Part shown: piece by piece, positions 13,647 to 49,543 of the stretch | Position numbering within the stretch: position 1 is the stretch's first letter | How the letters are laid out: each line of letters opens with the position of its first letter | Source: Methanobrevibacter sp. V74 | Lineage (GTDB): Archaea; Methanobacteriota; Methanobacteria; Methanobacteriales; Methanobacteriaceae | DNA: 64,000 nucleotides | Assembly: GCF_963082495.1 (NCBI RefSeq) | Contig: NZ_CAUJAN010000001.1 | Span: forward strand, 124,001 to 188,000 | Direction of reading: 5' to 3' | Made by a program: the position numbers and the translations under genes | The notes under the pieces: generated by a model | Database searches by the model: none | Told to the model about the DNA's origin: nothing | Seen by the model: the letters and a program-made list of their open reading frames with translations, nothing else

Positions 13647-14570
13647 ATGAAAATTACATTTTTAGGTAGTGGCGGAGGAAGATTTTCCGCTATCAGCCAA
13701 CGAAGGATGACCGGGGGTTTCAGATTGGACAATCTCGGCGGAAAAAATTATCACATTGACCCAGGTCCTGGAGCACTAATAAGAACTTACCAGTTCGGGT
13801 TTGACCCTCGTAATTTAAGTGGAGTCATTGTTTCACATTCTCATACAGACCACTACAATGATGCAGAAATTCTCATTGAAGCAATGACTAAAGGAATGAC
13901 TAAAAGACAAGGAACTATCGTTGGTGGGGAAAGTGTTTTGGAAGGATATGAAAGATGGGGGCCATGCATTTCTGATTATCATAAATCGAAGTCTGACAAA
14001 ATAGTCTTAAAGCCTGGGGAGTGGAATAGATTAGATAATGTTTCAATTAAAGGTACTGAAACCTCACATGGCGATCCAACAGGTGTCGGATTTCAGATAG
14101 ATTGCAATGGCTTTAAAATTTCTTACACTTCCGATACAGGTTATTTTGATGGTCTGGCCCAAGACCATGAGGGTGCTGATATCTTAATAGCTAGCGTGTT
14201 GAGGCCGGGAAACAGGTCGATTAATGGACATATGTGTTCCCGCAATTTCGTTGATTTAATCAATGAAGTCAAACCGAAGGTTGCCGTAATGACACATTTG
14301 GGTCTAAAAATGATTTCAAGCAATCCTGTTACAGAAGCTAGAAAAGTTTATAAACAAACAGGTGTTAAAACTATTGCTGCATATGACGGTTTATCATTCA
14401 ATGTGAATTATAATAATCCTAAAAAATTCAGGCTAATTTCACTTAAAGACACACAGTCTTCAATTCACAGCACCAGTCATGCCTTGTTTGAAAATGAAAG
14501 AAAAAATTCTTACCAATTGTCCTTCAAACATAATGAGTTTGATGAAGTTTTAATGGCAAGAAAAGATTAG
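13647..14570 (+). CDS. MBL-fold metallo-hydrolase
   Basis: This 307-residue metallo-beta-lactamase fold protein has [20 protein letters not shown] at the N terminus, the metal-binding [12 protein letters not shown] (HxHxDH) motif, ETSHGDPTGVGF, SYTSDTGYFDG, HMCSRNF and MTHLGLKM, providing the usual histidine and aspartate ligands. Family members include nucleases, phosphodiesterases and glyoxalase-like enzymes; the exact reaction here is not known. It is translated just after the DUF2121 gene, with GAGG upstream of its start. It converges with aroC, with 2 bp between the ends. Confidence 0.85.
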   Translation: MKITFLGSGGGRFSAISQRRMTGGFRLDNLGGKNYHIDPGPGALIRTYQFGFDPRNLSGVIVSHSHTDHYNDAEILIEAMTKGMTKRQGTIVGGESVLEGYERWGPCISDYHKSKSDKIVLKPGEWNRLDNVSIKGTETSHGDPTGVGFQIDCNGFKISYTSDTGYFDGLAQDHEGADILIASVLRPGNRSINGHMCSRNFVDLINEVKPKVAVMTHLGLKMISSNPVTEARKVYKQTGVKTIAAYDGLSFNVNYNNPKKFRLISLKDTQSSIHSTSHALFENERKNSYQLSFKHNEFDEVLMARKD

Positions 14571-14572
14571 GA

Positions 14573-15667
14573 TCATTTTTCTAGATTGCTGGGGTGGATA
14601 AAACCTGAACGAATCATATGATCTGCAAGAACAATTGCAGTGCTTGATTCGGCAACAACGCTAACTCTGGGACATATGCATGGGTCATGGCGGCCTTCTA
14701 TTTCTATTTTTTTATTTTCCATTTTTTCTAAATCAACAGAATTTTGACATTTGGAAATGGAGGGAGTAGGTTTCACTGCAATTCTTGAAACAATTTCCAT
14801 GCCATTGCTCATGCCTCCAATGATTCCACCGGAATTGTTTGTTTTTGCTGTTGCTTTATTTTCATTTATTTGATATTCATCATTTGTTTGCGAACCACTT
14901 TTAGTCGCCATGTCAAATCCAAGACCGATTTCAACTCCTTTTATTGCCCCAATGTTCATTAAAATTCTTGCTAAGTCCCCATCAAGTCTTCCAAATACAG
15001 GTTCTCCTAATCCTGCAGGCACTCCAATAGCTATTGTTTCAACAATCCCTCCAATAGAGTCTCCTTCTTGTTTTTTAGCCAAGATTAATTCTTCAATTTT
15101 CCGGGCTGCCTTTAAATCTCCGCAACGAACAGGATTTTTCTCGACATTTTCTTTGATAATTTCAAGATCATTAATTTCAGCTTTAATATCTCCAATTTGA
15201 GCAACATGTGAAATAATTTCAATATTTTGGGTTTTTAAAAGTTTTTTAGCTATTGCTCCACCAATCACATGTCCAATAGTAACTCTGCCGCTTCCACGAC
15301 CTCCGCCGTTATAGTCATAGTTGCCATATTTCATCATCCAAGCAAAATCTCCATGAGATGGGCGTGGTGTATTTTCAAACATTGAATAATCTTTTGAATG
15401 TTGATTTTTATTAAAAACAACTCCAGTAATTGGAGTTCCATCTGTTTTACCATTAAAAATACCAGATAAAATTTGAACTTCATCTGCCTCTTTTCTGGAG
15501 GTGGTTATGCTGCTTGTTCCGGGTTTTCTTTTATCAAGCTCTTTTTGAATGTCCTCTTGTGTTAATTCAAGATTTGCGGGGCATCCATCAACAACAGCTC
15601 CAACCGCTTTTCCATGGCTTGACCCAAAGCTTGTTATTTGAAATTTTTCACCAATTGAATTTGACAT
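14573..15667 (-). CDS. aroC: Chorismate synthase (chromosomal copy)
   Basis: AroC converts EPSP to chorismate using reduced FMN, the last step of the shikimate trunk. The 364-residue protein has all landmarks: [27 protein letters not shown], the intact glycine/arginine flavin loop [30 protein letters not shown], and RHDPCICPR near the C terminus. GAGGT precedes the start. A second, damaged copy lies at 35558 in the island. This is the copy expected to be functional. Confidence 0.95.
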
Positions 15668-33612: not shown

Positions 33613-33694
33613 ATTTCATTACCTTCATTAATTTAATAATGTGATATACTATGTTTTAAGTGTTTAATATTATTTGTCATTGTTATTTTTCAAC

Positions 33695-33808
33695 CTTGTA
33701 GAAACCATGTTAAAATTTTTAGATGAATATTGATTTTTAACTTGTTTTATTCAGATAATCATTTATTTACAGAAGAATCCAAGTATTTAAAATGAGTGTT
33801 TCTACAAG
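33695..33808. repeat. MITE-like element with 11-bp inverted ends
   Basis: CTTGTAGAAAC (33695-33705) is the exact complement of GTTTCTACAAG (33798-33808). The 114 bp between and including them has no coding capacity and aligns over its length with 48871-48983. It lies just outside the left boundary of the island. Confidence 0.45.
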
Positions 33809-33839
33809 TTTAATAAAAGGTTTCATCTGAAGTTTCTAG

Positions 33840-33847
33840 GAATGAAG
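33840..33847. repeat. 8-bp duplication X, left copy
   Basis: GAATGAAG lies directly outside the left end of IS copy A. The same 8 bp lies directly outside the right end of IS copy B (44032-44039), not at the right end of copy A. Confidence 0.8.
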
Positions 33848-35230
33848 GTCTCTTTCAAAAACTTGTGTGATTTGAATTTTTACTATTTTTTGAGCCACGA
33901 AATTTTTTCGTTCTATTTTTTCTTTATTTTTAATTTAAAAGTAGTAAAATTAATATATAAGGTGGAACTTAAATATTAATATGTCTAATAAGAATATTAA
34001 AGCTTCATATGAATGTATGGAGTTAAAAGAATATAAACTTTCCGATTTTATTCCAGAGTTTTTTCTGAATTCCGCCAATATGATGATCTTTCTCGATTTG
34101 GTTGTGAAAAATATTGCTGATAATCTATATTAGACTGGAAAAAAAGAGGAAAAAACTTATTTTTGAAAAATAGAATTAGTATTTTATCCAAGTTGTAAAT
34201 CAAAAGATGCTGTTAAAAATGGAACTTACGAAAGGAAACTAATCTTTTTTTAAGAATTGGAGAACAAATTTGTACTATTCAAAAATATAAATGCAAAAAA
34301 ATGCGGCAAAGTTTTTTTATATACTGATTTTATCTTCACTTGTTTATCCTAATTCTAATATTACATTGCCTGTTATTGAGTGTATTGAAAATTTATATCA
34401 AATTTTATGGTGCAGGGCTCCCACAAAATACGATTTGACTTAAAAAATCAACACAACATCGAAATCTCACATCAAAGCATAGAAAACATATTATTAAACT
34501 CAAATTATCAATTTAACTATCAAAATTGGACTTATTTAAGGTTTATTATTTATTCGACAGTCTTTGGGTTAAAATTAATGGGATTTGGATATTATATTTT
34601 TAGCATTATTCGACGTTAAACTGAATACTTTAGTTTCAGTCAAATTAGTCGAATCAGAAGATTCCAAGACCATTTATCAATTCTTAAACGAATCACTAAG
34701 AAATCAAAAGAAAATATCAATATGAACATGACTTAAAACATGAATATCGAGAAGCAATAGATAAACTAAAAGTAAAACATCATTTCTGCAAATTTCACGT
34801 GAAACAAAACATAAACAAAAGATTTAAAGACTATTTTAATAAAAACCAACTAACAGATGAAGAAAAAGAAATCTTAACAGAATTAAAACAAGACATTTAT
34901 AAAAATATTGGATGCAGAAACACTCAATGATGCTAAAAAAACTACGTGACATGTTAATTGATAAAAAAATACCCTCCAAACAACTTCACAATACAAAATA
35001 CTATGGAAATTCATCATTCCCAACTTTAAAAAATTAACAAACCACCTTGAAAACACAAATATTCCATCAACAAACAATAAAATCGAAAACATCCTCCAAA
35101 AAGTATTTTCAAAACATATAAAAAGAACAATGAAGATAAAACAAGAACTTTTAACAAGATTCATCCTAACTAAATTATTGGAACATAAAAAATGAAAAAG
35201 AAAAAAATCACACAAGTTTTTGAAAGAGCC
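33848..35230. mobile_element. 1383-bp insertion sequence, copy A (dead)
   Basis: The ends are 23-bp inverted repeats differing at one base (33848-33870 and 35208-35230; core CTCTTTCAAAAACTTGTG). It encodes a transposase-like protein read from about 33981, broken by an amber codon near 34131 and by several frameshifts. Visible pieces are SCKSKDAVKNGTYERK, KCKKCGKVFYT (zinc ribbon) and an AIDKLKVKHHFCKFHVKQNINKRF region. The family cannot be named with certainty; a zinc-ribbon DDE transposase is likely. Copy B at 42649 has exactly the same length and many of the same lesions. The flanking 8-mers differ (GAATGAAG left, CAAGGTCA right). Confidence 0.85.
33981..35195 (+). pseudogene. Transposase pseudogene of IS copy A
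   Basis: Reads MSNKNIKASYECMELKEYKLSDF from an ATG at 33981, then a TAG near 34131. Further downstream, zinc-ribbon, central and C-terminal (TRFILTKLLEHKK) segments are found in different frames. Short open stretches inside it (such as 34407-34619) are parts of this broken gene, not separate genes. Not functional. Confidence 0.75.
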
Positions 35231-35307
35231 CAAGGTCATAAAATATAAAGATTTATATTAGATTAATTACAAAAGAACTATTAATTAACTTAATGGAGGT
35301 ACGTACA

Positions 35308-35514
35308 ATGGTTAGTTCAATAGTTGCTGCAATTATTTCCTTTTTCTTACCTGGAATTGGTCAAATAATTCAAGGAGAAACTAAAAAAGGAGCAATAATG
35401 TTTGTAGTTGCAATTATATTGTGTGCTGTGTTAAACTACGGTTTAGGATCAATTGGAAGTATTATATATTTAATATATGCACTATATGCAGCTTACGATG
35501 CTTATAATATGTAG
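35308..35514 (+). CDS. TM2-like small membrane protein
   Basis: This 68-residue protein consists of SIVAAIISFFLPGIGQIIQGETKKGAIMFVV-type first helix and turn, and a second hydrophobic segment, resembling TM2-domain proteins. GGAGGT (35295-35300) sets the start at 35308; an in-frame ATG at 35293 lies on the ribosome site itself. Role unknown. It appears intact although its island neighbours are decaying. Confidence 0.65.
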   Translation: MVSSIVAAIISFFLPGIGQIIQGETKKGAIMFVVAIILCAVLNYGLGSIGSIIYLIYALYAAYDAYNM

Positions 35515-35557
35515 AAAAAATTAAAAACATCACCATTTAAACATCACATATTCATTA

Positions 35558-36661
35558 ATGATGATTAAAATGACAAATCGTATTGGAAAAGTTTTCTCAA
35601 TAACAACATTTGGATCAAGTCATGGAAAAGCTATTGGAGCTATTATTGATGGCTGTCCTGCAAACCTCGAATTAAGTGTTAGAGACATTCAAAAAGAACT
35701 TGATAAAAAAAAGCCTGGAAATAATAGTGTTTCAACCCCTAGAAAAGAATTTGATAAAGTAGATATTTTATCAGGTATGTTCAAATGGAAAACAGATGGA
35801 ACACCAATTGCAGGAATTGTTTTTAATGAAAACCATCACTCAAAAGATTATTCTGATTTTGAAAAGACACCTCGCCCTTCCCATGGCGACTTTGCTTGGA
35901 TGATGAAATATGGCAATTATGATTATGCTGGAAGTGGTCGCGTAACTATTGGTCATGTAATTGGAGGAGCAGTGGCTAAAAAACTCTTAAAAACACAAAA
36001 TATTGAAATAATATCTCATGTTAAGCAAGTTGGAAATATTATCGGTTGTGAAAATGATTTTAATAATATAAAAGAGAATGTTGAAAAAAATCCTGTTCGT
36101 TGCGGAGACCTAAAAGCTGCAAAAGAAATGGAAGAGTTAATTTTAGCTAAAAAAGCTGAAGGAGATTCAGTTGGTGGTGTTGTTAAAACTATTGCCTGTG
36201 GTGTTCTTGTGGGATTAGGAGAACCTATATTTAGAAGACTTGATGGAGATTTATCAAGAATTTTAATGAATATTGGATCTGTTAAAGGTGTTGAGATTGG
36301 TTGTGGATTTGATGTAGCTAATCATTGTGCAAGTGAAATTAACGACGAATATGAAATAGTTAATGATAAAATAAATATTAAATCTAATAATTCTGGTGGA
36401 ATAATTGGTGGAATGAGTAATGGAATGCCAATAATATCAAAAATAGCTATTAAACCTATATCTATCTCTAAATGTCAAAATTCGATTGATTTTGATTCAA
36501 TGGAAAATAAAAAAATAGAGATAAAAGGAAGACATGACCCTTGTATTTGCCCAAGAGTGTGTATTGTAGTTGAATCTTCAACAGCCATTGTCCTTGCAGA
36601 TCATATGATTCGCTCTGGTTTTATACATCCAACAAATTTAGATTTTAATAAGTCAATATAA
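35558..36661 (+). CDS. aroC: Second chorismate synthase copy, probably damaged
   Basis: This 367-residue homologue is related end to end to the chromosomal AroC (14573), with many substitutions. The family's glycine/arginine flavin-EPSP loop, intact in the chromosomal copy as [12 protein letters not shown], is YAGSGRVT here: four residues are missing in frame. Other conserved places differ too ([15 protein letters not shown] became VLVGLGEPIFRRLDG; KPTPSI lost one residue). The frame is open and ends RHDPCICPR like the original. It may be inactive and in early decay. It is the only open gene of the imported aroC-MBL-DUF2121 block. Confidence 0.8.
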   Translation: MMIKMTNRIGKVFSITTFGSSHGKAIGAIIDGCPANLELSVRDIQKELDKKKPGNNSVSTPRKEFDKVDILSGMFKWKTDGTPIAGIVFNENHHSKDYSDFEKTPRPSHGDFAWMMKYGNYDYAGSGRVTIGHVIGGAVAKKLLKTQNIEIISHVKQVGNIIGCENDFNNIKENVEKNPVRCGDLKAAKEMEELILAKKAEGDSVGGVVKTIACGVLVGLGEPIFRRLDGDLSRILMNIGSVKGVEIGCGFDVANHCASEINDEYEIVNDKINIKSNNSGGIIGGMSNGMPIISKIAIKPISISKCQNSIDFDSMENKKIEIKGRHDPCICPRVCIVVESSTAIVLADHMIRSGFIHPTNLDFNKSI

Positions 36662-36669
36662 TAGAAAAT

Positions 36670-37600
36670 CTATTTACTTATGGTTTTTCCAATTTTTAAC
36701 TCATCAAATTCCCTATTATCTATTACTGCTTGAAATGTGTTTTTTCACTCATTTTTAAATAATGTTTTATTACTACCATGAGCATTAGAATTAACATCTT
36801 TAAGAGAAGTCATTTTAAGTTTTCTTGGATTATTATAATTAGTATTTAAAGACATTCCATCAAATGCAGCTAATGTTTTAACGCCTGTTTCTTTATTAAC
36901 TTTTTTAGCTTCAGTTACTGGATTCAATGCTAACATTTTAAGGCCCAAATGTGTCATAATAGCTACTTTGGGTTTTACTTCATTTATTAAATCAATGAAA
37001 TTTAGTGTGCATATATGGCCATTAATTGATTTAATGCCTGGTCTTAAAACACTAGTGATTAAAATATCTGAACCTTTATGATAATCAGATAATTCATCAA
37101 AATAAGCAGTATCTGATGTATAAGATATTTTAAATCCTTTATAATCAATTTGAAAGCCAACACCTGCAAGGTCTCCATGGCGTGTTTTAGTACATTTATA
37201 GTAAATCCATCTAATTTATTTACTTCATCAGGTTTTAAAATAAGTTTATCAGACATGCTTTGATGATATTTAGATATGCAAGAACCCCATTTTTGATATC
37301 CTCCAAGAACACTAGGACTTCCAACAATAGTTCCTGTTCTTTTAGTCATTCCTTTAGTTATGGCTTCAATGAGGATTTCTGCATCATTATAATGGTCTGT
37401 GTGTGCATGAGAAACAAAAACTCCATTAATATTTCTAGGATCTAATCCAAATTGATAAGTTCTAATAAGAGCTCTTGGACCTGAATCAACATGATAATTT
37501 TTACCAGCTAAATTATCAATTCTAAACCCACCAGTCATTCTACGCTGAGAGATAGCAGAAAATCTTCCACCCCCCCACTGCCTAAAAATGTAAGTTTCAT
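36670..37600 (-). pseudogene. MBL-fold hydrolase pseudogene
   Basis: It is homologous to the intact gene at 13647. Lesions: two extra bases in a G-run just after [10 protein letters not shown] (near 37573), a frameshift near 37180 (the [13 protein letters not shown] stretch lies in another frame), and a TGA after LFKNE near 36746, beyond which homology continues to a TAG at 36670. The metal motif [12 protein letters not shown] is still readable. Confidence 0.85.
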
Positions 37601-37609
37601 TTAAACCTC

Positions 37610-38352
37610 CTACAACGAGCATAAAATTATATCACAACTTAAAGGAGATTTATTTTTTTTAAGACATAAAATTTCATTATCAATTATAACTTTATCTCCA
37701 AGTTTATCATCATTATCACTAAACATTAAAACATTTTCACTAGGACCTGCTAATTGTTTCCAATCACCATTCATTGCTCGTGTTTTATCATTAAGTTCAA
37801 CTTGAATCATATTTCCGTCTATTAAGACAACTTTTCCAATTTCACCTTTATTAATAATATTACTTGCCATTTCAATAGCTAAATTTTGTTGAATTAGTTC
37901 TTCGGTTAATTTTTTTCTAAATTTAGTTAAAACTTTGATATCGTGATCTACTGTGACATTAGATGTTTTGAGCTTCATTTTCATCAAAATTTGGGCTTTT
38001 AATTAACACATCAAAATGTCGACCAATTGATGGTGTTTTTTGAGAAATTTCTTCTAAAATATTTCCAAAAATTTCACCTATGTATTTTAAATTTTGAGAA
38101 GATTTCCAGTATCTATTAATTAAAGTTTCAGCTTTTTGTTTTGCAAATTTATTTCCAAATATTATAATACCACTTTTACCTGCTTGGCGTGATGATACCT
38201 CAGAACCTAATAACTCTACGATTTGATAACCATTTGTAGTTCCATAAATTCTTTTTCTTCTGGTTTCAAAGGTTCCTTTAGTACTTACTTCACCTCTTAC
38301 AGAATTTTCAACAATATTAATTTTATTTGCGTCATCTGTTATTTGTTTTGAA
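37610..38352 (-). pseudogene. DUF2121 pseudogene, N-terminally truncated
   Basis: It is homologous to the gene at 12715. The C-terminal third is open (VTVDHDIKVLTKFRKKLTEELIQQ ... CDIILCSL). A frameshift near 37965 (NEAQNI then out of frame) separates it from the middle part ITDDANKINIVENSVRGEVSTKGT in 37975-38352. About 60 N-terminal residues are gone. The order and spacing relative to the MBL pseudogene match the chromosomal pair. Confidence 0.85.
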
Positions 38353-38372
38353 TAATTCAGGAGAAAACATTC

Positions 38373-38580
38373 AGTAAATACTAGAAGAAATGGAAACTTT
38401 TAAAGGATTTTCATGTTTTTTTGGCAACAGATGGATCCTATGTTGAAATTCCTGATCATCCACAAGCACGTGAAGAAATGGGAGTTCCACCAAATAATGA
38501 AGTTGAAACATTTGCTGCAAATGCAAGAATCTCTTGCACAGTCGATACAAAAATGGACTTTGTAATATCAATCAATAATT
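38373..38580 (+). pseudogene. Unidentified coding remnant
   Basis: The plus strand reads ILEEMETFKGFSCF, then after a likely extra T in a T-run continues LATDGSYVEIPDHPQAREE, MGVPPNNEVETFAANARISC and TVDTKMDFVISINN, then stops. It is protein-like and clearly once coding, but I do not recognise the family. It abuts the truncated end of the DUF2121 pseudogene. Confidence 0.45.
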
Positions 38581-38656
38581 GAAAAATCAAACCGTAAATG
38601 AAATAACATTTAGCATTAAGACACTTAGATGATGTAAAAAAAAACAAAATTAATAT

Positions 38657-38700
38657 GAATATATAGTAATCACATGCTATTGATAGATTACTATATATTC
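38657..38700. repeat. Perfect 15-bp inverted repeat
   Basis: GAATATATAGTAATC (38657-38671) and GATTACTATATATTC (38686-38700) are exact complements around 14 nt. It could be a hairpin, an operator or the remnant of an element end. Confidence 0.5.
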
Positions 38701-38771
38701 CACAGAAATCATGTTAAAAACAGAAAAACATTTGAATTCATACTATTTAATCCGTGGAAAAACAAGTACAT

Positions 38772-40624
38772 GAGTGTTGGCAGAAATTATTAGATTTTGA
38801 ACATTTTTCATTTTATCCTTTAGCTTTTTTCAATATTTTTTTAAGTTAGTGATATGAACTTTATTGCACTAATGACTGAATGTAAATCCATTTTATTCTC
38901 TTTAATAAGATTAAACAATCTTATTAGGTTGTATGATGCTACGATTGTGAACATTTGGTTTTGTACTCTTTTTAAACCAACTATTGGAAGATAATCATAG
39001 TTGTAAATTCTTTTGAAAGTTCCGTTATGTGCTTCTACAGTCTTTGAACGTAATTTATAGTCTTTTATTCTATCTTTAGTAGACATTAATCTTTCAACTT
39101 TGTATGTAACTTCGTGGACGTACCTTGTTATTGCTCTATGGTTGGTTGTATAGCATTTCACTTTATATTTGTAATTTTTGCAGGCTAGGTAGTTTGAATA
39201 GACTAATTTGATTTTATTTCCTCCTCCTTTTTTTTGTGGGGCAGGATATGCTCCATCAAGAGTTAATTCTTCATTATTGGGACAAATAAAAACATTTTTA
39301 TATTCATCAAAAACAAAATAATCTATAGCAAATGGATTGTCAGGTAGATTACCTGAATTCTCTCTATTTTACTGTTTTGTTGGAATTAAAGCAGTTATAC
39401 CTAATTCCTCGAGATATTGTAAATTTGCTAGTGTTGAATAGATTGTATCCGCGCTAATTTTTGTGGGTTGTAATTTTAGATTAACGAGGATTTGATTCAT
39501 TAATGCAGGAATTTGATAATGATCCGTAGGATTTTGAACTGCATTAACTCCACATATTAACTTCGATTTCGTATCAGTTCCCAATTGAATATTAAATGAA
39601 AATTTAGGATACTTTTGTCCATTATCTTTAACTTTCATCAGTCGAGCATCATGATCATTCAAAGCTAACGATACCTGTCCAGAATAGTCCAACAACTGCC
39701 ACCAATAAAAAAAGAATTTCAACTTTTTCTTTATCTGATTTTGATTTATCATCTAAAAATTTTCGTACGGTTCTTCTAAGCTTTTTAATTTCATCTTTTG
39801 TTAATTCTTCGACCAAATAATGCTTTATTAATAAAATAATATCTTTTTTCTTTGATTATATTGAATGAAGAATTGTAAGCATTTTTTTTATTGTTCCATC
39901 AATTGCAATATGTTCAAAATCAGTTAATCCAATTCTATTTGCCACAATCAGAATAAAACTCATAATTAATTGGTAAATTTGTTGAAAAATACTTACAATA
40001 ATCTCGTATTGTTCTGTCACTTGGTTCTATAAAATGTGAAATTAAATTATACAAATAATTGTACTTTGCATTATAAGCTAACTCCACAGTGCTTGTTATT
40101 TTATTAATATATCCATAAAAAATTAGTTTTATCATATCTTTGAGGTCAAAAGGTGGTTTTCCAACATTGGAAATTTTTCGTTTGATTTTAAAGAAATTAA
40201 ACGCACCATCAACGATTGTTGATGCAAGATACATAAGTTGAAATTCATCTTCCATTTCTTCAATTTCCCTACTTTTTTCGCTCAAAATATAGTTATCCAA
40301 AATCATATCAATCAAAAACTCCTATATTAAATTAAACAATTATAGAATTAACTATAACTAATTATATATTAGTTATTTCTAATATAAATAGATTTAAATA
40401 ACTTATAGCTAGAATAATAAGTAATAAAATATTAAAATTAAATATTAATAATTTTTACAAATAATTAGATTAAAATACCCATAATTACAAGGCCAATATA
40501 AAAAAAAGTATGAATTTATGGAAAAAAATTTTCACGAATTAAAATTGAACAAAGTTTAATAAAAATAGGAAAATAGGTTAAAAATTAAATAATATTTAAA
40601 TCTCAATAATTTCTGCCAACACTC
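38772..40624. mobile_element. IS1182-like insertion sequence (dead)
   Basis: The ends GAGTGTTGGCAGAAATTATT (38772-38791) and its exact complement (40605-40624) are flanked by a 5-bp direct duplication TACAT (38767-38771 and 40625-40629). Inside is a broken minus-strand transposase. About 1853 bp. The intact TIRs and duplication show it inserted into the island before its transposase decayed. Confidence 0.8.
38841..40315 (-). pseudogene. IS1182-family transposase pseudogene
   Basis: N-terminal part (40315-39935) has KPPFDLKDMIKLIFYGYINK and PSDRTIRDYCKYF, as in IS1182/DUF772-type transposases. Middle (39752-39369) has SLALNDHDARLMKVKD-like and YQIPALMNQILVNL. The C-terminal part (39161-38841) has RSKTVEAHNGTFKRIYNYDY. 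Stops and frameshifts separate the three. Not functional. Confidence 0.75.
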
Positions 40625-40756
40625 TACATTCAAAAAAAAGACAACAAAAAAATGGGCATGGAGAAAAAAATCATGATAATATTAGGATATAAGCTTGTAA
40701 TAATGCAAAAATAAAAAAAATTTCCACGACGAAGAACTAAAAAAAATTGCAAGAAA

Positions 40757-40863
40757 GGGTGTCCGCCAAAAATCTAAAATTAATTTTTGAAACTGATTAA
40801 AACTACTTCAATTCAAAAACAAAGAAAAATTTGCATTAAAAAAATTACTTTTGGCGAACACCC
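40757..40863. mobile_element. 107-bp MITE-like element
   Basis: GGGTGTCCGCCAAAA (40757-40771) and TTTTGGCGAACACCC (40849-40863) are inverted with one mismatch, flanked by GAAA on both sides. No coding capacity. Its ends resemble those of the 62149 element (GAGTGTCCACCTAAA). Confidence 0.5.
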
Positions 40864-40869
40864 GAAAAC

Positions 40870-41430
40870 AAAAAAAGGTATTCAAGTTCAGAATTAATTA
40901 AAGTAAAATTAAAAACTGGAGAAACAGAAAATACTATTTAACCAATTTTACCAAAAGAAATCGCAACATCCGAAGAATTAAAGCATATTAATAATGGTGA
41001 AAGATGGAAAGTAGAAACCGATTATGACATGTTTAAAAAAAACAAATTATACATTGAAAAATTCAGTGGAAGAAGACTAACCATAATAGAACAAGACTTC
41101 TACAGCCACATATTCCTACTAAACCTACTAATAGGAATAAAAAACTATGCAGAACTAAAAAAATAACAAGAAAACCAAAAGAAACAGCAAAATACGCCTA
41201 CAAATACCACTCCAATATCAACACACTCATCGGAGAAATCAAAGACCAACTACCAAGACTCCTAACAAACAACCAAGACGAAATACAACAAGTAATAAAA
41301 GAAATAATGGAAATCGGCTCAAAAGAACTTGTAGCAACGAAAATACTTGCACAAATAAATGCAGAAAGAGATAAAGATAAAAATTGGAATAAAAATTGTA
41401 AAACAAGCAAAAGCCAGGGATTTTAAAAAT
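40870..41430 (+). pseudogene. IS4-type transposase C-terminal remnant
   Basis: The plus strand reads ELKHINNGERWKVETDYDMF, KLYIEKFSGRRLTIIEQDFY and SHIFLLNLLIGIKNYAELKK, then after a frameshift INTLIGEIKDQLPRLLTNN and LVATKILAQINAERDKDK. The W-x-V-E-xx-Y/F pattern is the Glu region of IS4-like DDE transposases. The N-terminal part is missing. Confidence 0.6.
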
Positions 41431-41458
41431 CTGAAAACCTTAACTTGATAGTACTGGA

Positions 41459-41466
41459 ATAAAATA
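41459..41466. repeat. 8-bp duplication of the IS5-like element, left copy
   Basis: ATAAAATA lies directly left of the IS5-like element. Its partner is not at the right end of that element but at 35238-35245, at the opposite end of the island. Confidence 0.7.
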
Positions 41467-42647
41467 GACTTTGTTGAAATCCTATATTTTACACTTGAAA
41501 TTTCACATCGACTTTGTTTTTTATGATGTTAAATTCGTGTTTTTCTTGTTTTAGCATATAATTCTTTTTATTTTTTTATACTTGAAATATTACTGAGTAT
41601 TTTTTAAAAATAAACATTAGTAAGTTATTTATAGTTAAATGTAGAATATATATTATTATGAATCAGAAAAATACACATTCTCCAAGTATACTTAGGTTTT
41701 CAGAGCATAAAAGTCTTTTGGATTTTTGCTTTAAAAAGCAGACAAAAAAATTTTTCAAAAAATATAAAAACGCATGTAAAAGTGATATTAAGCATAATGA
41801 ATTGATAAAATTCATTGAATATTGTTATAGTTATGCTAAAATTGTTTTAAACAAATATTCGTGCAAATATTCTAAGAAATTATACTCTCAACCAGCATTA
41901 TTCACAATCATTGCTTTAAAGATTTACTTAAAAATAACTTATCGCTAAATAATGGATTTTATATCCTTTTCAGACGCATTAAGAAAATATCTCAAGATTA
42001 AAAAGGCTCCAGATTACTCAACAATACAGAAATTCTTTAAAAGAATGCCAACAAACATGTTTGAAAGAATAACAGAACAAATAATTCAACATTTAGAAAT
42101 TAAACCCACAACACTTGCTCTTGATGGTACAGGATTCACCAATGACTACACAGACAAATATTATGCACAAATAAGGGGCAAAAAACGAAAAAGCTACACA
42201 AAATGCCATATTGCAATTGAAGTAGATACAAGAATAATCCTTTACTCACAAGCACTAAAAGGCCCAAAACACGATACAAAATTCGAAATAGCATCAATAA
42301 GAAGCTTAAAAAAATATAATATCAAATACATAATAGCAGACAAAGCTTACGATGACAACAAAATAAGAGAATGCATAAACGAAGAAATAAAAGCATCAGA
42401 CCAAATACCACTCAAATCCAACTTCAAACACGGATGGTACATAAGACTAAGCATAAAAACCTTCGATAAAAAAATATATTCAGGAAGAAACAACGTAGAA
42501 AGCGTATTCAGCGTAATTAAAAGAAAATTCTCAGGAACAAACAAAAGCAAAAAAACAAGACAACAAAACAAAGAAACAAGACTCAAAACAGCAGTTTACA
42601 ACATCGACAGAGTAGTGAAAATTTTAAATTAGGATTTCAACAAGGTC
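41467..42647. mobile_element. IS5-like insertion sequence
   Basis: Imperfect 18-bp inverted ends, GACTTTGTTGAAATCCTA at 41467-41484 and the complement of GACCTTGTTGAAATCCTA at 42630-42647, bracket a transposase gene on the plus strand. Length 1181 bp. IS copy B has inserted at its right tip, so duplication Y overlaps the TIR. An 8-bp target duplication is consistent with the ISH1-type subgroup of IS5, as recalled; size also recalls ISM1 of M. smithii, unverified. Confidence 0.8.
41658..42632 (+). pseudogene. IS5-family transposase with one in-frame stop
   Basis: One frame runs 41658-42632, interrupted only by a TAA at 41946-41948. DDE landmarks are LALDGTGFTNDY, IIADKAYDDNKIRE and GRNNVESVFSVIKRKFSG. 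The N-terminal part is MNQKNTHSPSILRF and on. A single-codon lesion means recent inactivation, or readthrough, of an otherwise whole 324-codon transposase. Confidence 0.8.
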
Positions 42648-42648
42648 A

Positions 42649-44031
42649 GTCTCTTTCAAAAACTTGTGTGATTTGAATTTTTACTATTTTTTGAGCCACG
42701 AAATTTTTTCGTTTAATTTTTTCTTTATTTTTAATTTAAAAGTAGTAAAATTAATATATAAGGTGGAACTTAAATATTAATATGTCCAATAACAATATTA
42801 AAGCTCCATATGAATGTATGGAGTTAAAAGAATATAAACTTTCCGATTTTATTCCAGAGTTTTTTCTGAATTCCGCCAATATGATGATCTTTCTCGATTT
42901 GGTTGTGAAAAATATTGCTGATAATCTATATTAGACTGGAAAAAAAGAGGAAAAACTTATTTTTGAAAAATAGAATTAGTATTTTATCCAAGTTGTAAAT
43001 CAAAAGATGCTGTTAAAAATGGAACTTACGAAAGGAAACTAATCTTTTTTTAAGAATTGGAGAACAAATGTGCACTATTCAAAAATATAAATGCAAAAAA
43101 ATGCGGCAAAGTTTTTTTTATACTGATTTTATCCTCACTTGTTTATCCTAATTCTAATATTACATTACCGGTTGTTGATTGTATTGAAAATTTATATCAA
43201 ATTTTATGGTGCAGGGCTCCACAAAATACGATTTGACTTAAAAAATCAACACAACATCGAAATCTCACATCAAAGCATAGAAAAACATATTATTAAACTC
43301 AAATTATCAATTTAACTATCCAAATTGGACTTATTCCGGTTATTACCTATTCGACAGTCTTTGGGTCAAAATTAATGGAATTTGGATATTATATTTTTAG
43401 CATTATTCGACGTTAAACTGAATACTTTAGTTTCAGTCAAATTAGTCGAATCAGAAGATTCCAAGACCATTTATCAATTCTTAAACGAATCACTAAGAAA
43501 TCAAAAGAAAATATCAATAGGAACATGACTTAAAACATGAATATCGAGAAGCAATAGATAAACTAAAAGTAAAACATCATTTCTGCAAATTCCACGTGAA
43601 ACAAAACATAAACAAAAAATTTAAAGACCATTTCAATAAAAACCAACTACCAGACAAAGAAAAAGAAATCTTAACAGAATTAAAACAAGACATTTATAAA
43701 AATATTGGATGCAGAAACACTCAATGATGCTAAAAAAAAACTACGTGACATATTGATTGATAAAAAAATACCCTCAAAACAACTTCACAATACAAAATCC
43801 TATGGAAATTCATCATTCCCTACTTTAAAAAATTAACAAACCACCTTGAAAACACAAATATTCCATCAACAAACAATAAAATCGAAAACATCCTCCAAAA
43901 AGTATTCCCAAAACACATAAAAAGAACAATGAAGATAAAACAAGAACTTTTAACAAGATTCATCCTAACTAAATTATTGGAACATAAAAAAATGAAAAAG
44001 AAAAAAAATCACACAAGTTTTTGAAAGAGCC
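42649..44031. mobile_element. 1383-bp insertion sequence, copy B (dead)
   Basis: A near-identical direct repeat of 33848-35230 with the same length and inverted ends (42649-42671 and 44009-44031). Its transposase pseudogene starts at 42782 and shares the amber codon and several frameshifts with copy A, with scattered single-base differences and small indels. Left flank CAAGGTCA, right flank GAATGAAG. Confidence 0.85.
42782..43995 (+). pseudogene. Transposase pseudogene of IS copy B
   Basis: It reads MSNNNIKAPYECMELKEYKL then stops at the same TAG as copy A. Zinc-ribbon and C-terminal segments are recognisable in other frames. Confidence 0.7.
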
Positions 44032-44039
44032 GAATGAAG
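44032..44039. repeat. 8-bp duplication X, right copy
   Basis: GAATGAAG directly outside the right end of IS copy B, matching 33840-33847. Confidence 0.8.
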
Positions 44040-44111
44040 TATTTTAAAAATATTTAAATATTAATGAATTAAATACTTTTAAATATTGAAGTATTATTTA
44101 AATATTTTTTT

Positions 44112-44150
44112 GTATTACTACTATATTGTTTTTATTAATTTTTGTAATAC
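44112..44150 (+). promoter_or_regulatory. Inverted repeat in the metal-importer promoter
   Basis: GTATTAC (44112-44118) and GTAATAC (44144-44150) are inverted across 25 bp that contain a TATA-like CTATATTG/TTTATTAA stretch, 29 bp before the start codon. It may be an operator. The half-site resembles those before the CooC-like gene. Confidence 0.35.
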
Positions 44151-44178
44151 TTTAATCCTTTAATATGGTGATGTTGAT

Positions 44179-45294
44179 ATGGATAAAAAAATTTATATTG
44201 GTATTGTAATTGTTATTGTAGCTATAATTACTGTTTTTGCAGTTAATTACAGTGATAATTCAAATGAAAGCGTAAATGGGATGATAACAATAAAAGATAT
44301 GGCAGGTAGAACTGTTAATGTCCCAGATAATGTGGAAAATGTTGTAGGTGTTGGATGTACTGCAAGAGAGATTGTTTATCTTGATGCAGAAGACAAAATT
44401 GTAGGAATTGAACAGATGGAATCTGATTCTAAAGGAGGATGGGGTAATGAATTACCATACATAAAATCTAATGAAAAATTAATAAAATTACCAATAATTG
44501 GCAATGCAAAAACTGACACTGTTGATTATGAAAAATTATCAAGTTTAAAACCGGATGTTGTATTTGCAGGAACTCCTGAACAAGCTAATCTAATTCAAAA
44601 TAAAACAGGTATTCCAACATTTGTTACATATGTTGGAGCTGTTGGAACAGAACAACAAATGGAAAAGTATGAAAACTCATTAATCATGATGGGGAAGATT
44701 TTAGGTAAAGAAGATAGAGCTAATGAATTAATCGGTTATATGGATGAAATTGAAGATGATCTTGAAAAAAGAGTCGAGCATGCTAAAAAAGATAAAACAG
44801 TTTATGTTGCAGGACAAGCATTTTACGGTGTTCATGGTATAACTTCTACTAATCCTTATTATCCTTCTTTTACACATTTAAATACTACAAATGTTGTAAA
44901 TGGGGTTGGTGGAGATAATGCAACTATACATGCAATCCAAGTTGATAAGGAACAATTAATTAAGTGGAATCCAGATTATATTTTTATTGAAGGTGCAAGC
45001 TATCAGGTTATTAGAGAAGATATTTCTAAAAATCCAGATTATAAACATATGTCTGCTATAAAAGATAAAAAAGTTCATAATTTATTAACTTACTGTTTAT
45101 ACAGCTATAATAAAGAAGAAATGTTTTCAAACTCTTATTATGTAGGTAAGGTTTTATATCCTGAAGAATTTAAAGATGTGGATATGGATAAAAAAACAGA
45201 GGAGATATTCATTAAATTCAACGGAGATGGCGGTGAAAACGCTGCAAGAAATATAACCTCACATTATAAGGCATTTGAAGCTGTACCGGTTTAA
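44179..45294 (+). CDS. Iron-chelate/corrinoid-type ABC solute-binding protein
   Basis: This 371-residue protein has an N-terminal hydrophobic segment (residues 4-21) and the FepB/BtuF-like body: ITIKDMAGRTVNVPDNVENVVGVG, LKPDVVFAGTPEQANLIQ, TGIPTFVTYVG, WNPDYIFIEGASYQV and IKDKKVHNL. It captures a metal chelate or corrinoid outside the cell for the permease encoded two genes downstream. No lipobox is seen; anchoring is by the N-terminal helix. Confidence 0.85.
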   Translation: MDKKIYIGIVIVIVAIITVFAVNYSDNSNESVNGMITIKDMAGRTVNVPDNVENVVGVGCTAREIVYLDAEDKIVGIEQMESDSKGGWGNELPYIKSNEKLIKLPIIGNAKTDTVDYEKLSSLKPDVVFAGTPEQANLIQNKTGIPTFVTYVGAVGTEQQMEKYENSLIMMGKILGKEDRANELIGYMDEIEDDLEKRVEHAKKDKTVYVAGQAFYGVHGITSTNPYYPSFTHLNTTNVVNGVGGDNATIHAIQVDKEQLIKWNPDYIFIEGASYQVIREDISKNPDYKHMSAIKDKKVHNLLTYCLYSYNKEEMFSNSYYVGKVLYPEEFKDVDMDKKTEEIFIKFNGDGGENAARNITSHYKAFEAVPV

Positions 45295-45316
45295 TTTAAT
45301 ATTATGGATGGTATTT

Positions 45317-46366
45317 ATGGATATTATGGAGGAACCTTCAGTTTCTGTTTTGGAATTTGAAAAAATTTTAAATTTTGCAACTAAAGGAATTAAAGTATTT
45401 AATATTATTAAAACATCATTAAATATAGGATTATTTAATATTTTAGAAGAAGAACATAGCTGTTCAGAACTTTCTAAAAGATTTTCAATTGATCATGATG
45501 TAATTTATTATATTTTGGAAGCTTTGGTAAAATTAGAGTTAATAGAAAAAAATAATGGAAATTACAAAAATAAAGAAATTTCTAATATTTATTTAAACTC
45601 AAATTCATATTTTCAAAGAAAAACCATTATCGAATCTTTAAACCAACCTTTATCATATTGGAATGATTTGGAAAATATCCTGTATTCTAAAGAAATAAAA
45701 TATGATGAAAACTTTTTTGAATTTATTATTAAAGCAATGGCTGAAGATGCTGTGTCTGGTGAGTTGCAAGAAACTTTAAATATAGTTAAAAAATATGATG
45801 AGTTTAAAGATTCTAAAACATTATTGGATATTGGAGGGGGTCATGGTTTGTATGCTATTGGATTTAAAAAATTAAATCCCGATTTAAAGGCATTTGTTTT
45901 TGACTTTCCAAATGTATTAAATGAAACTAAAAAATTTTGTGATAAATATGATTCGGATATAGTTTTAATTCCTGGAAATTTCTATGATGATGATTTAAAA
46001 GGTTCTTATGATGTAATATTTTCTTCTTACAATCCTGGTGGAAAAAATGCGAAAATTGCAGAAAAAATTTATGAGTCATTAAATATGAATGGACTTTTTA
46101 TAAATAAACAATATTTCCCGACAAAAACAGAATTGAATTTAGATGATATTTTAAATAATTTAGAATGGAATTTCACTAATTTTAACATGTCAAATAAAGG
46201 AAAAATAAGATACACCTTTAAAAATGATTTGTCTTATGAGTCATATTTAAAGAATTTAGAAGATCTTGGATTTGAAATTTTAGATATATTTCCGATTAAT
46301 CATCATAATGCTTCTTTTGGAACAACAGCAGAAGATAAAATCATAATTGCAAAAAAAGTGAGATAG
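45317..46366 (+). CDS. O-methyltransferase-like enzyme in importer operon
   Basis: This about 349-residue protein has an N-terminal dimerisation/winged-helix domain (LNIGLFNILEEEHSCSELSKRFSIDHDVIYYILEALVKLELIE), then a Rossmann methyltransferase domain with TLLDIGGGHGLYAIGF (motif I). It resembles the acetylserotonin O-methyltransferase family. The ATG at 45317 is preferred; an earlier in-frame start overlaps the binding-protein gene. Its place between binding protein and permease suggests it methylates the imported ligand or a precursor, which is inference. Confidence 0.75.
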   Translation: MDIMEEPSVSVLEFEKILNFATKGIKVFNIIKTSLNIGLFNILEEEHSCSELSKRFSIDHDVIYYILEALVKLELIEKNNGNYKNKEISNIYLNSNSYFQRKTIIESLNQPLSYWNDLENILYSKEIKYDENFFEFIIKAMAEDAVSGELQETLNIVKKYDEFKDSKTLLDIGGGHGLYAIGFKKLNPDLKAFVFDFPNVLNETKKFCDKYDSDIVLIPGNFYDDDLKGSYDVIFSSYNPGGKNAKIAEKIYESLNMNGLFINKQYFPTKTELNLDDILNNLEWNFTNFNMSNKGKIRYTFKNDLSYESYLKNLEDLGFEILDIFPINHHNASFGTTAEDKIIIAKKVR

Positions 46367-47413
46367 TTGAAGTCAAGCACTAAAACATATCAAGAGTATA
46401 TAAATAGAAAACTTATAATTATTTTAATTTTATCTATATTATTGGCAATAACAGCTTTATGTTCAATAAAAGTAGGAGCTACTAATTTAAGTTTTAAAGA
46501 AATATTATTATCTATTTTTTTAGAAACTAAAGATTCATCAATAATTTGGAATATTCGGATATCAAGAATTGTCGTTGCGATAGTTGCAGGGATTTTTATG
46601 GGGGTTGAAGGTACAATACTGCAATGTGTACTTAGAAATCCTCTTGCAAGTCCTTATACAATGGGCATTTCTCAGGGTGCTGCTTTTGGAGCTTCATTTT
46701 CCATAATTGTTTTAGGTGCTGGAACATTATATAGTTCCCAAGCAGATGCAGTAATACTGAATAATCCTTACCTAACTGTTTTTTTCGCGTTTATAGGTGC
46801 TTTAATTGGTGTAATTGCAATAATTATAATTTCAAAAATTCGGAATTTGACTCCGGAAGTAATGATACTTGCAGGAGTTGCAATGAGTGCATTATTTTCA
46901 GCAGGAACTATGTTTTTACAGTATTTTGCAAGTGATACTCAAATTGCTGCAACTATATTTTGGACATTCGGTGATGTAAGCAGAGCTGTTTGGAATGATT
47001 TTTGGATTATGTTAATAATACTTATTCCATCAATTTCCTATTTTATTTATCATTCTTGGGATTATAATAGTCTTTCTGCAGGTGAAGTTACAGCTAAAAG
47101 TTTTGGATTAAATACTGAAAAAATTCGTTTAACTGCTTTATTATTGTCATCATTCACGGCAGCTTTAACTGTTGCTTTTTTAGGAGTAATTGGATTTGTA
47201 GGATTAATAGCTCCACATATTATGAGAAGAATTCTTGGTAATGACCATAGATTTTTAATCCCGGCATCTGGATTGTTGGGAGCTTTGATTTTACTAATTT
47301 CAGACACATTGGCTAAGTCAATTCTGGCGCCAATCATTCTTCCTGTCGGTATAATAACTGCATTTATGGGCGGTCCTATGTTTCTTTATATAATTATAAA
47401 AATGAGGTATTAG
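46367..47413 (+). CDS. FecCD-family ABC permease
   Basis: This 348-residue membrane protein has about ten hydrophobic helices and the FecCD signature segments [53 protein letters not shown] and [19 protein letters not shown]. It starts with TTG immediately after the upstream stop. It forms the membrane channel of the metal-chelate importer. Confidence 0.9.
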
Positions 47414-47421
47414 GTGATTTT

Positions 47422-48180
47422 ATGATTTTATCAGTTAATGATGTATTTTTTTCTTACAAGGATATTGAAGTACTAAGTGGAATAAATTTTACAGTTGAAG
47501 AGGGCGATTTTGTTTCTATTTTAGGGGTTAATGGTTCTGGGAAATCTACACTTTTAAAATGCATAAATAAAATATTAAACTATAAAAAAGGTTCTATTTT
47601 ATTAAATGATGAAGATATTGTGAGCATGGATAATTCAGAACTAGCACAAAAAATCGCTTATGTTCCTCAAAAAGTTCCCATTGAAAGATCAACAGTTTTT
47701 GATGCTATATTGCTAGGAAGAAGGCCATATATAACATGGAATGTTTCTGAAAGTGATATAAAACTAACAAAAAATATAATGAAGCTGTTAAATATAGAAT
47801 CTTATGCACTAAGATATATTAATAATCTTAGTGGTGGGGAATTACAAAAAGTTGTTTTGGCTCGTGCACTTGTTCAAGACCCTAAAATTCTTCTTCTCGA
47901 CGAACCTACAAGTGATTTAGATTTGAAAAATCAATATGAGGTAATGAATTTACTTAAAACAATTGCAAAAGATAAAAAAATAACTCCAATAATTGTTTTA
48001 CATGATATAAACTTAGCACTAAGATATTCTAATAAATTTATTTTACTAAAAGATGGGAAGGTTTTTAGTTGTGGTGGTGAAGATACTATTAATAGTGAGA
48101 GTATAAAGGAAGTATATGGTATTGATGCTTATGTTAAATATTTAAACGGTATTAAAACAGTTATTCCAAAACCATATTAA
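47422..48180 (+). CDS. ABC importer ATPase (FepC/BtuD type)
   Basis: This 252-residue ATPase has Walker A GVNGSGKST, the signature LSGGELQKVVLARALVQD, Walker B ILLLDEPTSDLD and the switch His in VLHDINLAL. It energises the permease encoded just upstream. The four genes form one operon that ends in the hairpin at 48199. Confidence 0.95.
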   Translation: MILSVNDVFFSYKDIEVLSGINFTVEEGDFVSILGVNGSGKSTLLKCINKILNYKKGSILLNDEDIVSMDNSELAQKIAYVPQKVPIERSTVFDAILLGRRPYITWNVSESDIKLTKNIMKLLNIESYALRYINNLSGGELQKVVLARALVQDPKILLLDEPTSDLDLKNQYEVMNLLKTIAKDKKITPIIVLHDINLALRYSNKFILLKDGKVFSCGGEDTINSESIKEVYGIDAYVKYLNGIKTVIPKPY

Positions 48181-48198
48181 TTAAAAAGCATTATATGT

Positions 48199-48260
48199 CC
48201 ATTATTGTATTAATTTTTCATTTTCCACTAATTGAATTAATACATAATGGTTTGTTTTTA
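48199..48260 (+). terminator. Terminator of the metal-importer operon
   Basis: CCATTATTGTATTAATT (48199-48215) pairs with AATTAATACATAATGG (48235-48250), with one bulged base, and is followed by TTTGTTTTT. It lies 18 bp after the ATPase stop. Confidence 0.6.
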
Positions 48261-48325
48261 GGCATTTTTATTTCCGATAATTATTATTTTTCTTTTAGCT
48301 CTAGTAATTTCTGAATAATTGCATT

Positions 48326-48346
48326 GAAAACATTCAGTATTGACAT
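48326..48346. repeat. 21-bp direct repeat, left copy
   Basis: Begins GAAAACATTCAGTATTGAC; an exact copy lies at 48832-48852. The pair brackets the small gene at 48421. The first 14 bases also occur at 38363-38376 in the island. Confidence 0.6.
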
Positions 48347-48420
48347 TAATTTTGCAAACCATAACTATAAATCTTAAAAATGCTAAATTTCTTAAAGAGA
48401 TAATTATTGGAGGTATTGAA

Positions 48421-48675
48421 ATGGGTGAACTGTCTAAACTTCCGAATATTGGTAAAGTATTAGCGGGACAATTAAATGAAGTTGGAATAAACACTGTCGA
48501 TGACTTGATTGATATTGGCAGTAAAGAAGCATGGTTAAAAATTAAAGGGATAGATGAAAGTGCATGTATAAATAGATTAATGGCATTGGAAGGAGCTATA
48601 CAGGATATTCGTTGGCATGACTTATCTGAAGATGATAAAAATAATTTAAAAGATTTTTATAATAACTATTTGTAA
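48421..48675 (+). CDS. TfoX C-terminal-domain (helix-hairpin-helix) protein
   Basis: This 84-residue protein is built of two helix-hairpin-helix-like units: LSKLPNIGKVLAGQLNEVGINTVDDLIDIGS and WLKIKGIDESACINRLMALEGAIQ, as in the stand-alone TfoX C-terminal family. It probably contacts nucleic acid. TTGGAGGT precedes the start. It is bracketed by the 21-bp direct repeat. Confidence 0.75.
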   Translation: MGELSKLPNIGKVLAGQLNEVGINTVDDLIDIGSKEAWLKIKGIDESACINRLMALEGAIQDIRWHDLSEDDKNNLKDFYNNYL

Positions 48676-48831
48676 GTAAATTTTTAAAAATATCCTTACT
48701 TGCAACGTGAAATTTTGTAGTACCTAACTAACCAAAAAATAGTTACTATACAATTTTTCGATGACCTACTTTAAATAAATATGGACTAACGTTAGTTTTC
48801 ATAACTTATGTTTGTTTTTAATAATTCAACG

Positions 48832-48852
48832 GAAAACATTCAGTATTGACAT
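48832..48852. repeat. 21-bp direct repeat, right copy
   Basis: Exact copy of 48326-48346. It sits in the 48676-49081 gap, which otherwise contains the MITE-like sequence at 48871-48983 and no gene. Confidence 0.6.
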
Positions 48853-48870
48853 ATTTTTTTTTAGATAAAA

Positions 48871-48983
48871 TTAAGAAAGGATTTTTAAAAATCCAGGTGA
48901 ATATCGAATTTTTAGTTTGTTTTATTTATATAATCCTTTATTTGCATAAAAATCAAATTATTTAAGATAAGGGGTTCTACAAG
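48871..48983. repeat. Diverged relative of the MITE-like element
   Basis: It aligns over its length with 33695-33808 (shared blocks include TTGTTTTATT and the right end TTCTACAAG). The left inverted end is degenerate, so this copy looks older. Confidence 0.35.
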
Positions 48984-49081
48984 GTTATCTTTTTAGATTT
49001 ACTCTTTTCCATGAATTTTATTATTGTGAATGTAAACAATTATATAATATGAGAGATTATTTTTTTTATTAGGTGATAATT

Positions 49082-49543
49082 ATAAGTAATGTATTAGTTG
49101 CTTATTTTTCAGCTAGTGGAGTTACCAAAAATGTAGCTGAGAAAATAGCTAATGAAAATGGATATGATGTATTCGAGATAGTGCCTGAAGAGTTTTATAT
49201 TGTTGCAGACTTAGATTATACCAATAAAGACTCAAGATCAACAATTGAAATGAACGATAAATCATTCAGACCTCCAATTGTTGAAACTTGTGATGTGAGT
49301 GGATATGATACTGTTGTTATCGGATTTCCTGTATGGTGGTATAAAGCACCTGCAATCATCAATACATTCATTGAAAGTGTAGATTTATCTGGAAAAACAA
49401 TCAAGGCATTTTACACTTCCGGAGGTTCTGGTATTGATAAATGTGTAAGTGATTTACAAGCAACTTACTCTGGACTTGACTTTGCAAAAGGAACACGCTT
49501 CACGAGGGATGTTTCAAAAGCAAAAGATTGGATTGAAGGATAA
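49082..49543 (+). CDS. Flavodoxin
   Basis: This 153-residue flavodoxin-like protein has an N-terminal VLVAYFSASGVTKNVAEKIA phosphate-binding loop, VVIGFPVWWYKAPAIINTFIES and FYTSGGSGIDKC. It carries FMN and serves as a low-potential carrier. Start: AGGTGA (49071-49076) lies 5 nt before an ATA at 49082 giving MSNVLVAYF; a GTG at 49073 is in frame but overlaps that ribosome site. A TATA-like run is at about 49040-49048. Confidence 0.85.
   Translation: MSNVLVAYFSASGVTKNVAEKIANENGYDVFEIVPEEFYIVADLDYTNKDSRSTIEMNDKSFRPPIVETCDVSGYDTVVIGFPVWWYKAPAIINTFIESVDLSGKTIKAFYTSGGSGIDKCVSDLQATYSGLDFAKGTRFTRDVSKAKDWIEG

Follow-up and report, generated by a model that had tools for sequence, protein, structure and literature searches.

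IS26 fusions as the closest described systems

The closest described counterparts of the arrangement reported here come from the insertion sequence (IS) IS26. In the cointegrate pBK32533, each joint of the fused molecules is occupied by an IS copy, the two being in direct orientation, with exchanged 8-bp target duplications (PMC7986276). IS26 also forms a translocatable unit (TU), a circle of one IS and a DNA segment, which is incorporated beside a resident IS26; when both transposases are frameshifted, incorporation is RecA-dependent and over 100-fold less frequent than through the transposase route (PMC4894685). The present analysis deals with a stretch of 64,000 nucleotides (the window) from the methanogen Methanobrevibacter sp. 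V74 (assembly GCF_963082495.1, contig NZ_CAUJAN010000001.1, positions 124,001 to 188,000), in which two direct copies of one IS, A and B, enclose a 7.4-kb interior that holds a second copy of the locus of the chorismate synthase gene aroC.

In logic and flank pattern, this locus is identical to pBK32533. It differs from that fusion of two plasmids by IS26 in that another IS with broken transposases is involved, on a methanogen chromosome, with a unit of 8.8 kb (PMC7986276). As in the TU system (PMC4894685), a circle with one IS would have joined at a resident copy and left an IS-bounded segment, but the IS is a different one, the sequence is the sole basis for the route, and decaying chromosomal DNA makes up the cargo. 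Since the flank pattern has been published for IS26 (PMC7986276), the mechanism is known, and the case is a well-documented example of a signature known from bacterial plasmids rather than a new kind of event. A literature search found no methanogen case in which dead ISs form the joint and the cargo is a core locus of foreign origin. Interlocking target duplications of this type make the order of events at a locus readable from a single genome.

Exchanged target duplications

Copies A and B (Table 1) are in direct orientation, measure 1,383 bp each and are 96.2% identical. Their alignment comprises 1,378 columns with 52 substitutions, plus 10 gap columns, the same length of the two copies masking compensating indels. 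With their flanks, the copies form GAATGAAG-A-CAAGGTCA and CAAGGTCA-B-GAATGAAG, which is an exact exchange of the 8-bp duplications X (GAATGAAG) and Y (CAAGGTCA). Two random 8-mers from the window match with a probability of 7.7e-5, which places the double exchange well outside chance; on the + strand of the window, the two 8-mers are present 5 and 3 times. The 8-bp duplication rule is seen on an intact relative of the IS in genome G007 (AATTTATC on both sides), on a copy in another species of the genus, G006 (GTTTTTAA), and on copy C1:521k of the genome that holds the window, G000 (GAATGTCT). Two direct IS copies bound the joined segment and their duplications are exchanged (X-IS-Y, Y-IS-X), both being marks of an IS-mediated circle fusion. 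This shows that the 7.4-kb interior was once closed on itself and then joined in through the IS. The closed unit amounts to 7,418 bp plus one IS, i.e., 8,801 bp. An earlier note on this DNA had proposed two direct copies of identical length, 8-mers that are duplications with exchanged partners, and an interior that was once circular; the first two claims stand as made, and closure of the interior on itself is corroborated by both the exchanged partners and the split duplication described below.

The ends of other copies of the IS were tabulated for 23 of the 30 retrieved G000 loci (72 matches listed), giving 30 left-type and 22 right-type ends on both strands. In this table, the complete X and Y 8-mers are common to the A/B pair alone. 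Exact left/right matches are limited to the A/B pair, to the two flanks of the copy at C1:521156 (GAATGTCT) and to an inverted pair on C4 (AAAATTAA), while three more cross-copy end matches, with one mismatch, are AT-rich. The possibility, named in the earlier note, that the 8-mers are a preferred target motif is partly borne out, as the GAATG of X recurs beside other copies, but the full 8-mers do not. Two independent insertions at similar favoured sites, with later deletions leaving matching 8-mers, would draw on this habit of the IS of sitting at the ends of other ISs (GAATG by several copies, Y at the end of an IS5-type element). Such a history is nevertheless extremely improbable: the complete 8-mers are confined to the A/B pair, two unlike flanks per copy would be left over, and the duplication of the IS5-type element shows a like separation.

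An assembly artefact, in which an X-IS-X in the chromosome was wrongly merged with a free circle of 8.8 kb (Y-IS-Y) at their common IS, is very unlikely. In its favour, the draft assembly has 15 contigs, there are repeated copies of the IS, and contig C9 starts inside an end of this IS. Nevertheless, A and B differ at 52 sites and their longest identical stretch is at most 149 bp, so that reads of moderate length can separate them; the other near-complete IS copies lie inside contigs, and the interior would be a circle even then.

Table 1. Features of the locus, in window coordinates
Feature	Position	Strand	Remarks
Miniature inverted-repeat transposable element (MITE)-like repeat, AACCTTGTAGAAACC...GTTTCTACAAGTTT	33692-33811		Left edge of larger insertion
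X duplication, left copy, GAATGAAG	33840-33847	+	Adjoins IS copy A
IS copy A	33848-35230	+	Transposase broken, longest stop-free stretch 76 aa
Y duplication, CAAGGTCA	35231-35238	+	Right of copy A
Right-hand target duplication of IS5-type element, ATAAAATA	35238-35245	+	Beyond copy A, far end of interior
Small gene, 68 aa	35308-35514	+	5' of aroC2; homologue upstream of native G006 aroC
aroC2, second chorismate synthase gene	35558-36661	+	Open frame, without GGGR
Metallo-beta-lactamase-fold (MBL) gene	36745-37622	-	Broken, several frames; homologue of native 13647-14570
Connectase gene, truncated	37610-38344	-	Homologue of native 12715-13635; G006 homology stops at 38344
Transposase remnant, IS4-like by frames	38343-41457	+	Pieces 38343-38771, 40625-40756, 40865-41457
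IS1182-family element, broken	38772-40624	-	Nested in IS4-like remnant; 5-bp duplication TACAT, 38767-38771 and 40625-40629
MITE, ~107 bp, GGGTGTCCGCC...GGCGAACACCC	40757-40863		Nested in IS4-like remnant
Left-hand target duplication of IS5-type element, ATAAAATA	41459-41466	+	
IS5-family element	41467-42647	+	Terminal repeats GACTTTGTTGAAATCCTA and TAGGATTTCAACAAGGTC
Y duplication, CAAGGTCA	42641-42648	+	Left of copy B
IS copy B	42649-44031	+	Transposase broken, longest stop-free stretch 86 aa
X duplication, right copy, GAATGAAG	44032-44039	+	Adjoins IS copy B
Acquired operon	44179-48180	+	Periplasmic binding protein, O-methyltransferase-like protein, FecCD permease, ABC ATPase
MITE-like repeat, second copy	48873-48986		Right edge of larger insertion; direct, 77% to 33699-33811

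A third, split duplication

The IS5-type element at the right end of the interior has its two target duplications on opposite sides of the segment. On its 3' side, a single A is followed by copy B, with no full duplication there, and the sequence right of copy A reads CAAGGTC-ATAAAATA (35231-35245), the CAAGGTC of Y being the end of the IS5-type element. Reading across Y restores this end together with its ATAAAATA duplication, the ends of the interior being contiguous without the IS, which means that the interior was joined end to start before A and B took their places. The 8-bp duplication length of the IS5 family is seen on a G006 copy, with ATTTTTAC on both sides. The interior was joined end to start, either as a circle or as a head-to-tail array.

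The flanks prove no more than an end-to-start junction between successive units, and this is equally well satisfied by a tandem array in head-to-tail order (or sister chromosomes in a polyploid cell), from which unequal IS exchange placed one unit at X. This explanation is quite unlikely, given that no second unit is found elsewhere in G000, where the aroC segment is single besides the native one, and that a free circle takes fewer steps.

Homologous crossover or cointegrate

It is fairly probable that an 8.8-kb circle joined by a single homologous crossover with a resident copy of the same IS. The circle would have consisted of the 7,418 bp and one IS with its Y duplication, carrying a foreign aroC locus together with several ISs, and its closed form would have been a free circle, not a head-to-tail array. 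A single crossover, presumably made by host recombination, between this circle (Y-IS-Y) and the chromosomal X-IS-X would yield X-IS-Y...Y-IS-X. In a replicative cointegrate, the IS of the circle at Y would instead have been copied into an empty X, fusing circle and chromosome, with A and B identical at birth; a circle belongs to both explanations, which differ in the last step only. Homologous recombination and cointegration at an empty X give the same flanks, so that the flanks alone cannot separate them. The earlier note had allowed either route, correctly as far as the flanks are concerned; the choice between them now leans to recombination, from the comparison of the A and B copies.

Nineteen of the 50 scored A/B differences are alleles also segregating among other copies (26 of 50 with the divergent copy C1:521k counted among the others), although the A/B columns near 1366-1373 are possibly one indel event, which makes 19 an upper count of independent sites. 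Across eight copies, the four-gamete test is failed by 282 of 496 informative site pairs. Taken together, these results indicate that exchange among copies is common in G000, and conversion could therefore also have blurred twin copies. In the best IS tree, restricted to nine G000 and two G006 copies with other fragments left out, A groups with five C4 copies (87/97), and A and B are not sisters. Because of the shared polymorphisms, and because the transposases are broken in all nine examined G000 copies (A, B and seven others), host recombination is on balance favoured over a transposase-made cointegrate.

The cointegrate is an unlikely alternative. In its favour, precisely these flanks are published for the IS26 cointegrate pBK32533 (PMC7986276). 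The transposase of the intact relative in G007 matches the Pfam IS240-type domain DDE_Tnp_IS240 (31 bits, cutoff 27), and distant intact relatives in G000, with frames up to 414 aa, might act in trans. Against this stand the separation of A from B in the best tree, where gene conversion could hide a twin origin, the 19 standing family polymorphisms among the A/B differences, and the broken transposases.

Several observations weigh against a free circle that recombined with a resident IS. Firstly, an A+B sister clade is not rejected (p-AU 0.21, and 0.33 for the left half alone), and near the right end A and B have alleles found in no other copy (alignment columns 1333 and 1336-1337), which is twin-like; both points speak for the cointegrate. 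Secondly, near-identical IS5-type ends in G006 (one right, one left) show the same octamer ATAAAATA, which is thus a favoured target, so that the raw frequency of the octamer in the window (2.2e-4) overstates how improbable the third duplication is. Thirdly, the aroC2 protein has no relative among viral contigs, in a search that detects close relatives only, and the 3.1-kb aroC segment, searched in distant mode, has no match among PLSDB plasmids; the circle as a known plasmid or virus was set aside.

A second connectase-MBL-aroC locus as cargo

The native locus at 12.7-15.7 kb of the window consists of a connectase gene, an MBL-fold gene and aroC (14573-15667), the window having two chorismate synthase genes in all. 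The order connectase - MBL - aroC is kept in 21 of 25 aroC loci, the other four being cut by contig ends (two) or from other lineages (two). Positions 35243-38344 (3.1 kb) are a second copy of this locus, collinear and unbroken with G006:C59:32540-35630 at 84% nucleotide identity. This is the best match among 138 family genomes (own included); the next other genome reaches 74% and the own native copy 72%. In an aroC tree of 22 rows (20 of the relatives' 29 aroC loci and the two window copies), the interior copy groups with G006 (100/100), and a grouping of it with the native copy is rejected (p-AU 9e-9). The synonymous divergence (dS) of aroC is 0.74 between the interior copy and G006, and 1.25 between the native copy and G006. 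The interior aroC segment is therefore a foreign, homeologous copy of G006-like origin, not a within-genome duplication.

This second locus, which is the only copy of the aroC segment in G000 besides the native one, is decaying: its MBL gene is broken, its connectase gene truncated, and aroC2 lacks the residues GGGR of a loop. This loop is present in all 51 aroC frames where it was located, among 54 loci examined, in which one species may be represented twice, from two collections. The aroC2 frame is open without these four residues, and the function of aroC2 seems doubtful. The ratio of nonsynonymous to synonymous divergence (dN/dS) of aroC2 against G006 is low (0.16), which, together with the open frame, means that the gene was constrained for most of its history. 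No replication gene was seen in the 8.8-kb unit, no tRNA in the window, and no integrase among the profiled window proteins (ORFs below 80 aa and much of the window being unprofiled). A literature search on aroC duplication in Methanobrevibacter, with most subscription papers outside its reach, returned nothing on point.

The description of the segment as an accessory island, given in the earlier note, does not fit these genes. Flanking ISs do not by themselves make a segment an accessory island; in this case they enclose a second aroC copy that is dying within a larger acquired block. The locus also provides a concrete example from methanogens of a core biosynthetic locus passing between species, probably via IS homology.

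Insertions in the interior and their affinities

The IS4-like remnant joins the truncated connectase gene on one side and the upstream side of the small gene on the other. As it bridges the two, the circle may first have been closed through this remnant. Of the two insertions nested in it, the IS1182-family element has two 98-99% copies elsewhere in G000; the C1:330k copy of the remnant in G000 has neither this element nor the MITE. For the IS4-like and IS1182-family parts, the closest sequences are G000 copies (95-99%), those of G006 reaching about 71-82%, and between 38200 and 41500, strong G000 matches outside the window are limited to IS parts. Copies A and B likewise fall in a G000 clade, separate from the two G006 copies included (100/100). 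The IS5-type element, of the G006 kind, sits between these G000-type parts. It is represented in G006 by pieces of 128-352 bp at contig ends, 90-96% identical, and elsewhere in G000 by at best 67% over near-full length; when its terminal repeat was looked for in 11 G000 loci, the window copy alone had it. From the affinities of these ISs, the Y insertion may have taken place in the G000 lineage or in one sharing its ISs.

A further, tentative proposal, which is rather unlikely, is that foreign DNA from another Methanobrevibacter species remained circular long enough for several IS hits and was rescued via dead-IS homology. An IS5-type element of the donor kind would then have inserted first, followed by an IS of the recipient kind. 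If true, genes could pass from one methanogen species to another by docking at dead ISs, without an active transposase.

The IS family: state, target choice and classification

The longest stop-free stretch is 70-101 aa in the nine examined G000 copies, versus 405 aa in the intact relative. All nine are broken, yet 92.7-98.8% alike pairwise, either because they were mobilised in trans while broken or because of conversion among copies. More distant intact relatives in G000 (~42% over a 77-aa query) might supply transposase in trans; an active IS6-family transposase within the element itself was not found among the nine copies. Besides A and B, G000 has seven near-complete or large copies: the flanks match in C1:521k, differ by one base in C4:236k (TCCCACAC/TCCCACAA) and are unlike in the remaining five. 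The inverted pair L006/L009 (G000 C4:41725 and C4:43821) has AAAATTAA as the left flank of one copy and the right flank of the other, in element orientation, which is half of an inversion signature; the other half has no match.

A 1.76-kb IS, assigned to the IS4 family by NCBIfam on an intact copy at C2:399-401 kb, has the terminal repeat AAGTTTCTAGGAATG (33830-33844), whose last five bases are the GAATG of X; GAATG recurs next to other copies of the A/B-type IS. This repeat has 31 exact sites in the 2.3 Mb of G000, the reversed control pattern having 0. It ends at, or at most ~10 bp from, IS copies or fragments at 33830-33847, C1:521138-521156, C5:154995-155017 and C3:366139-366168. With X and Y both at IS ends, the A/B-type element seems to target the ends of other ISs.

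For classification, ISL3 membership had been guessed from the terminal repeats and was discarded: PF01610 has 0 matches in G000 (four of 14 control genomes match), and DDE_Tnp_ISL3 is absent from the Pfam hits of the intact 405-aa relative, for which ISL3 is the best NCBIfam model but far under its cutoff (30.6 of 180). The element is called ISM1-like here, as a presumed relative of ISM1 of Methanobrevibacter smithii. ISM1 has Methanobrevibacter as its host genus and makes 8-bp duplications. No paper on ISM1 as an M. smithii IS was found in a literature search that left most subscription papers outside.

A larger insertion between hemD and the flavodoxin gene

The boundaries given in the earlier note are not those of the acquired DNA, as 33848-44031 is nested in an insertion of ~15.3 kb between hemD and the flavodoxin gene (49073-49543, Flavodoxin_4). 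The native spacer breaks off near 33691 and resumes near 49023, and, relative to the nine genomes in which the flavodoxin gene comes after hemD (see below), the whole insertion spans about 33.69-48.99 kb, with a MITE-like repeat at either edge. The hemD regions of 13 of the 66 genus relatives were retrieved. The flavodoxin gene comes after hemD without the 44.2-48.2 kb operon in nine of them, with a spacing of 127-234 bp in five (G024, G064, G063, G045, G055) and 1,160-3,092 bp in four (G001, G010, G041, G004); no flavodoxin gene was seen in the retrieved hemD stretch of the other four (G006, G026, G002, G039). The predicted empty site (33780-33847 joined to 44040-44100) did not turn up, none of the 13 hemD stretches having an adjoining operon.

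Among the 66 other genus genomes, the operon at 44179-48180 is complete in G006 only, at 86% nucleotide identity, where it lies elsewhere with other upstream sequence. Since native aroC is 78% identical between G000 and G006, the operon was probably also transferred between these lineages. In the nine relatives with both genes, the spacer (window 33613-49072) ranges from 127 to 3,092 bp, a variation which suggests that this site repeatedly takes up DNA. Inside the acquired block, 3' of the operon, a small protein encoded at 48340-48675 matches the TfoX C-terminal domain with 86.9 bits.

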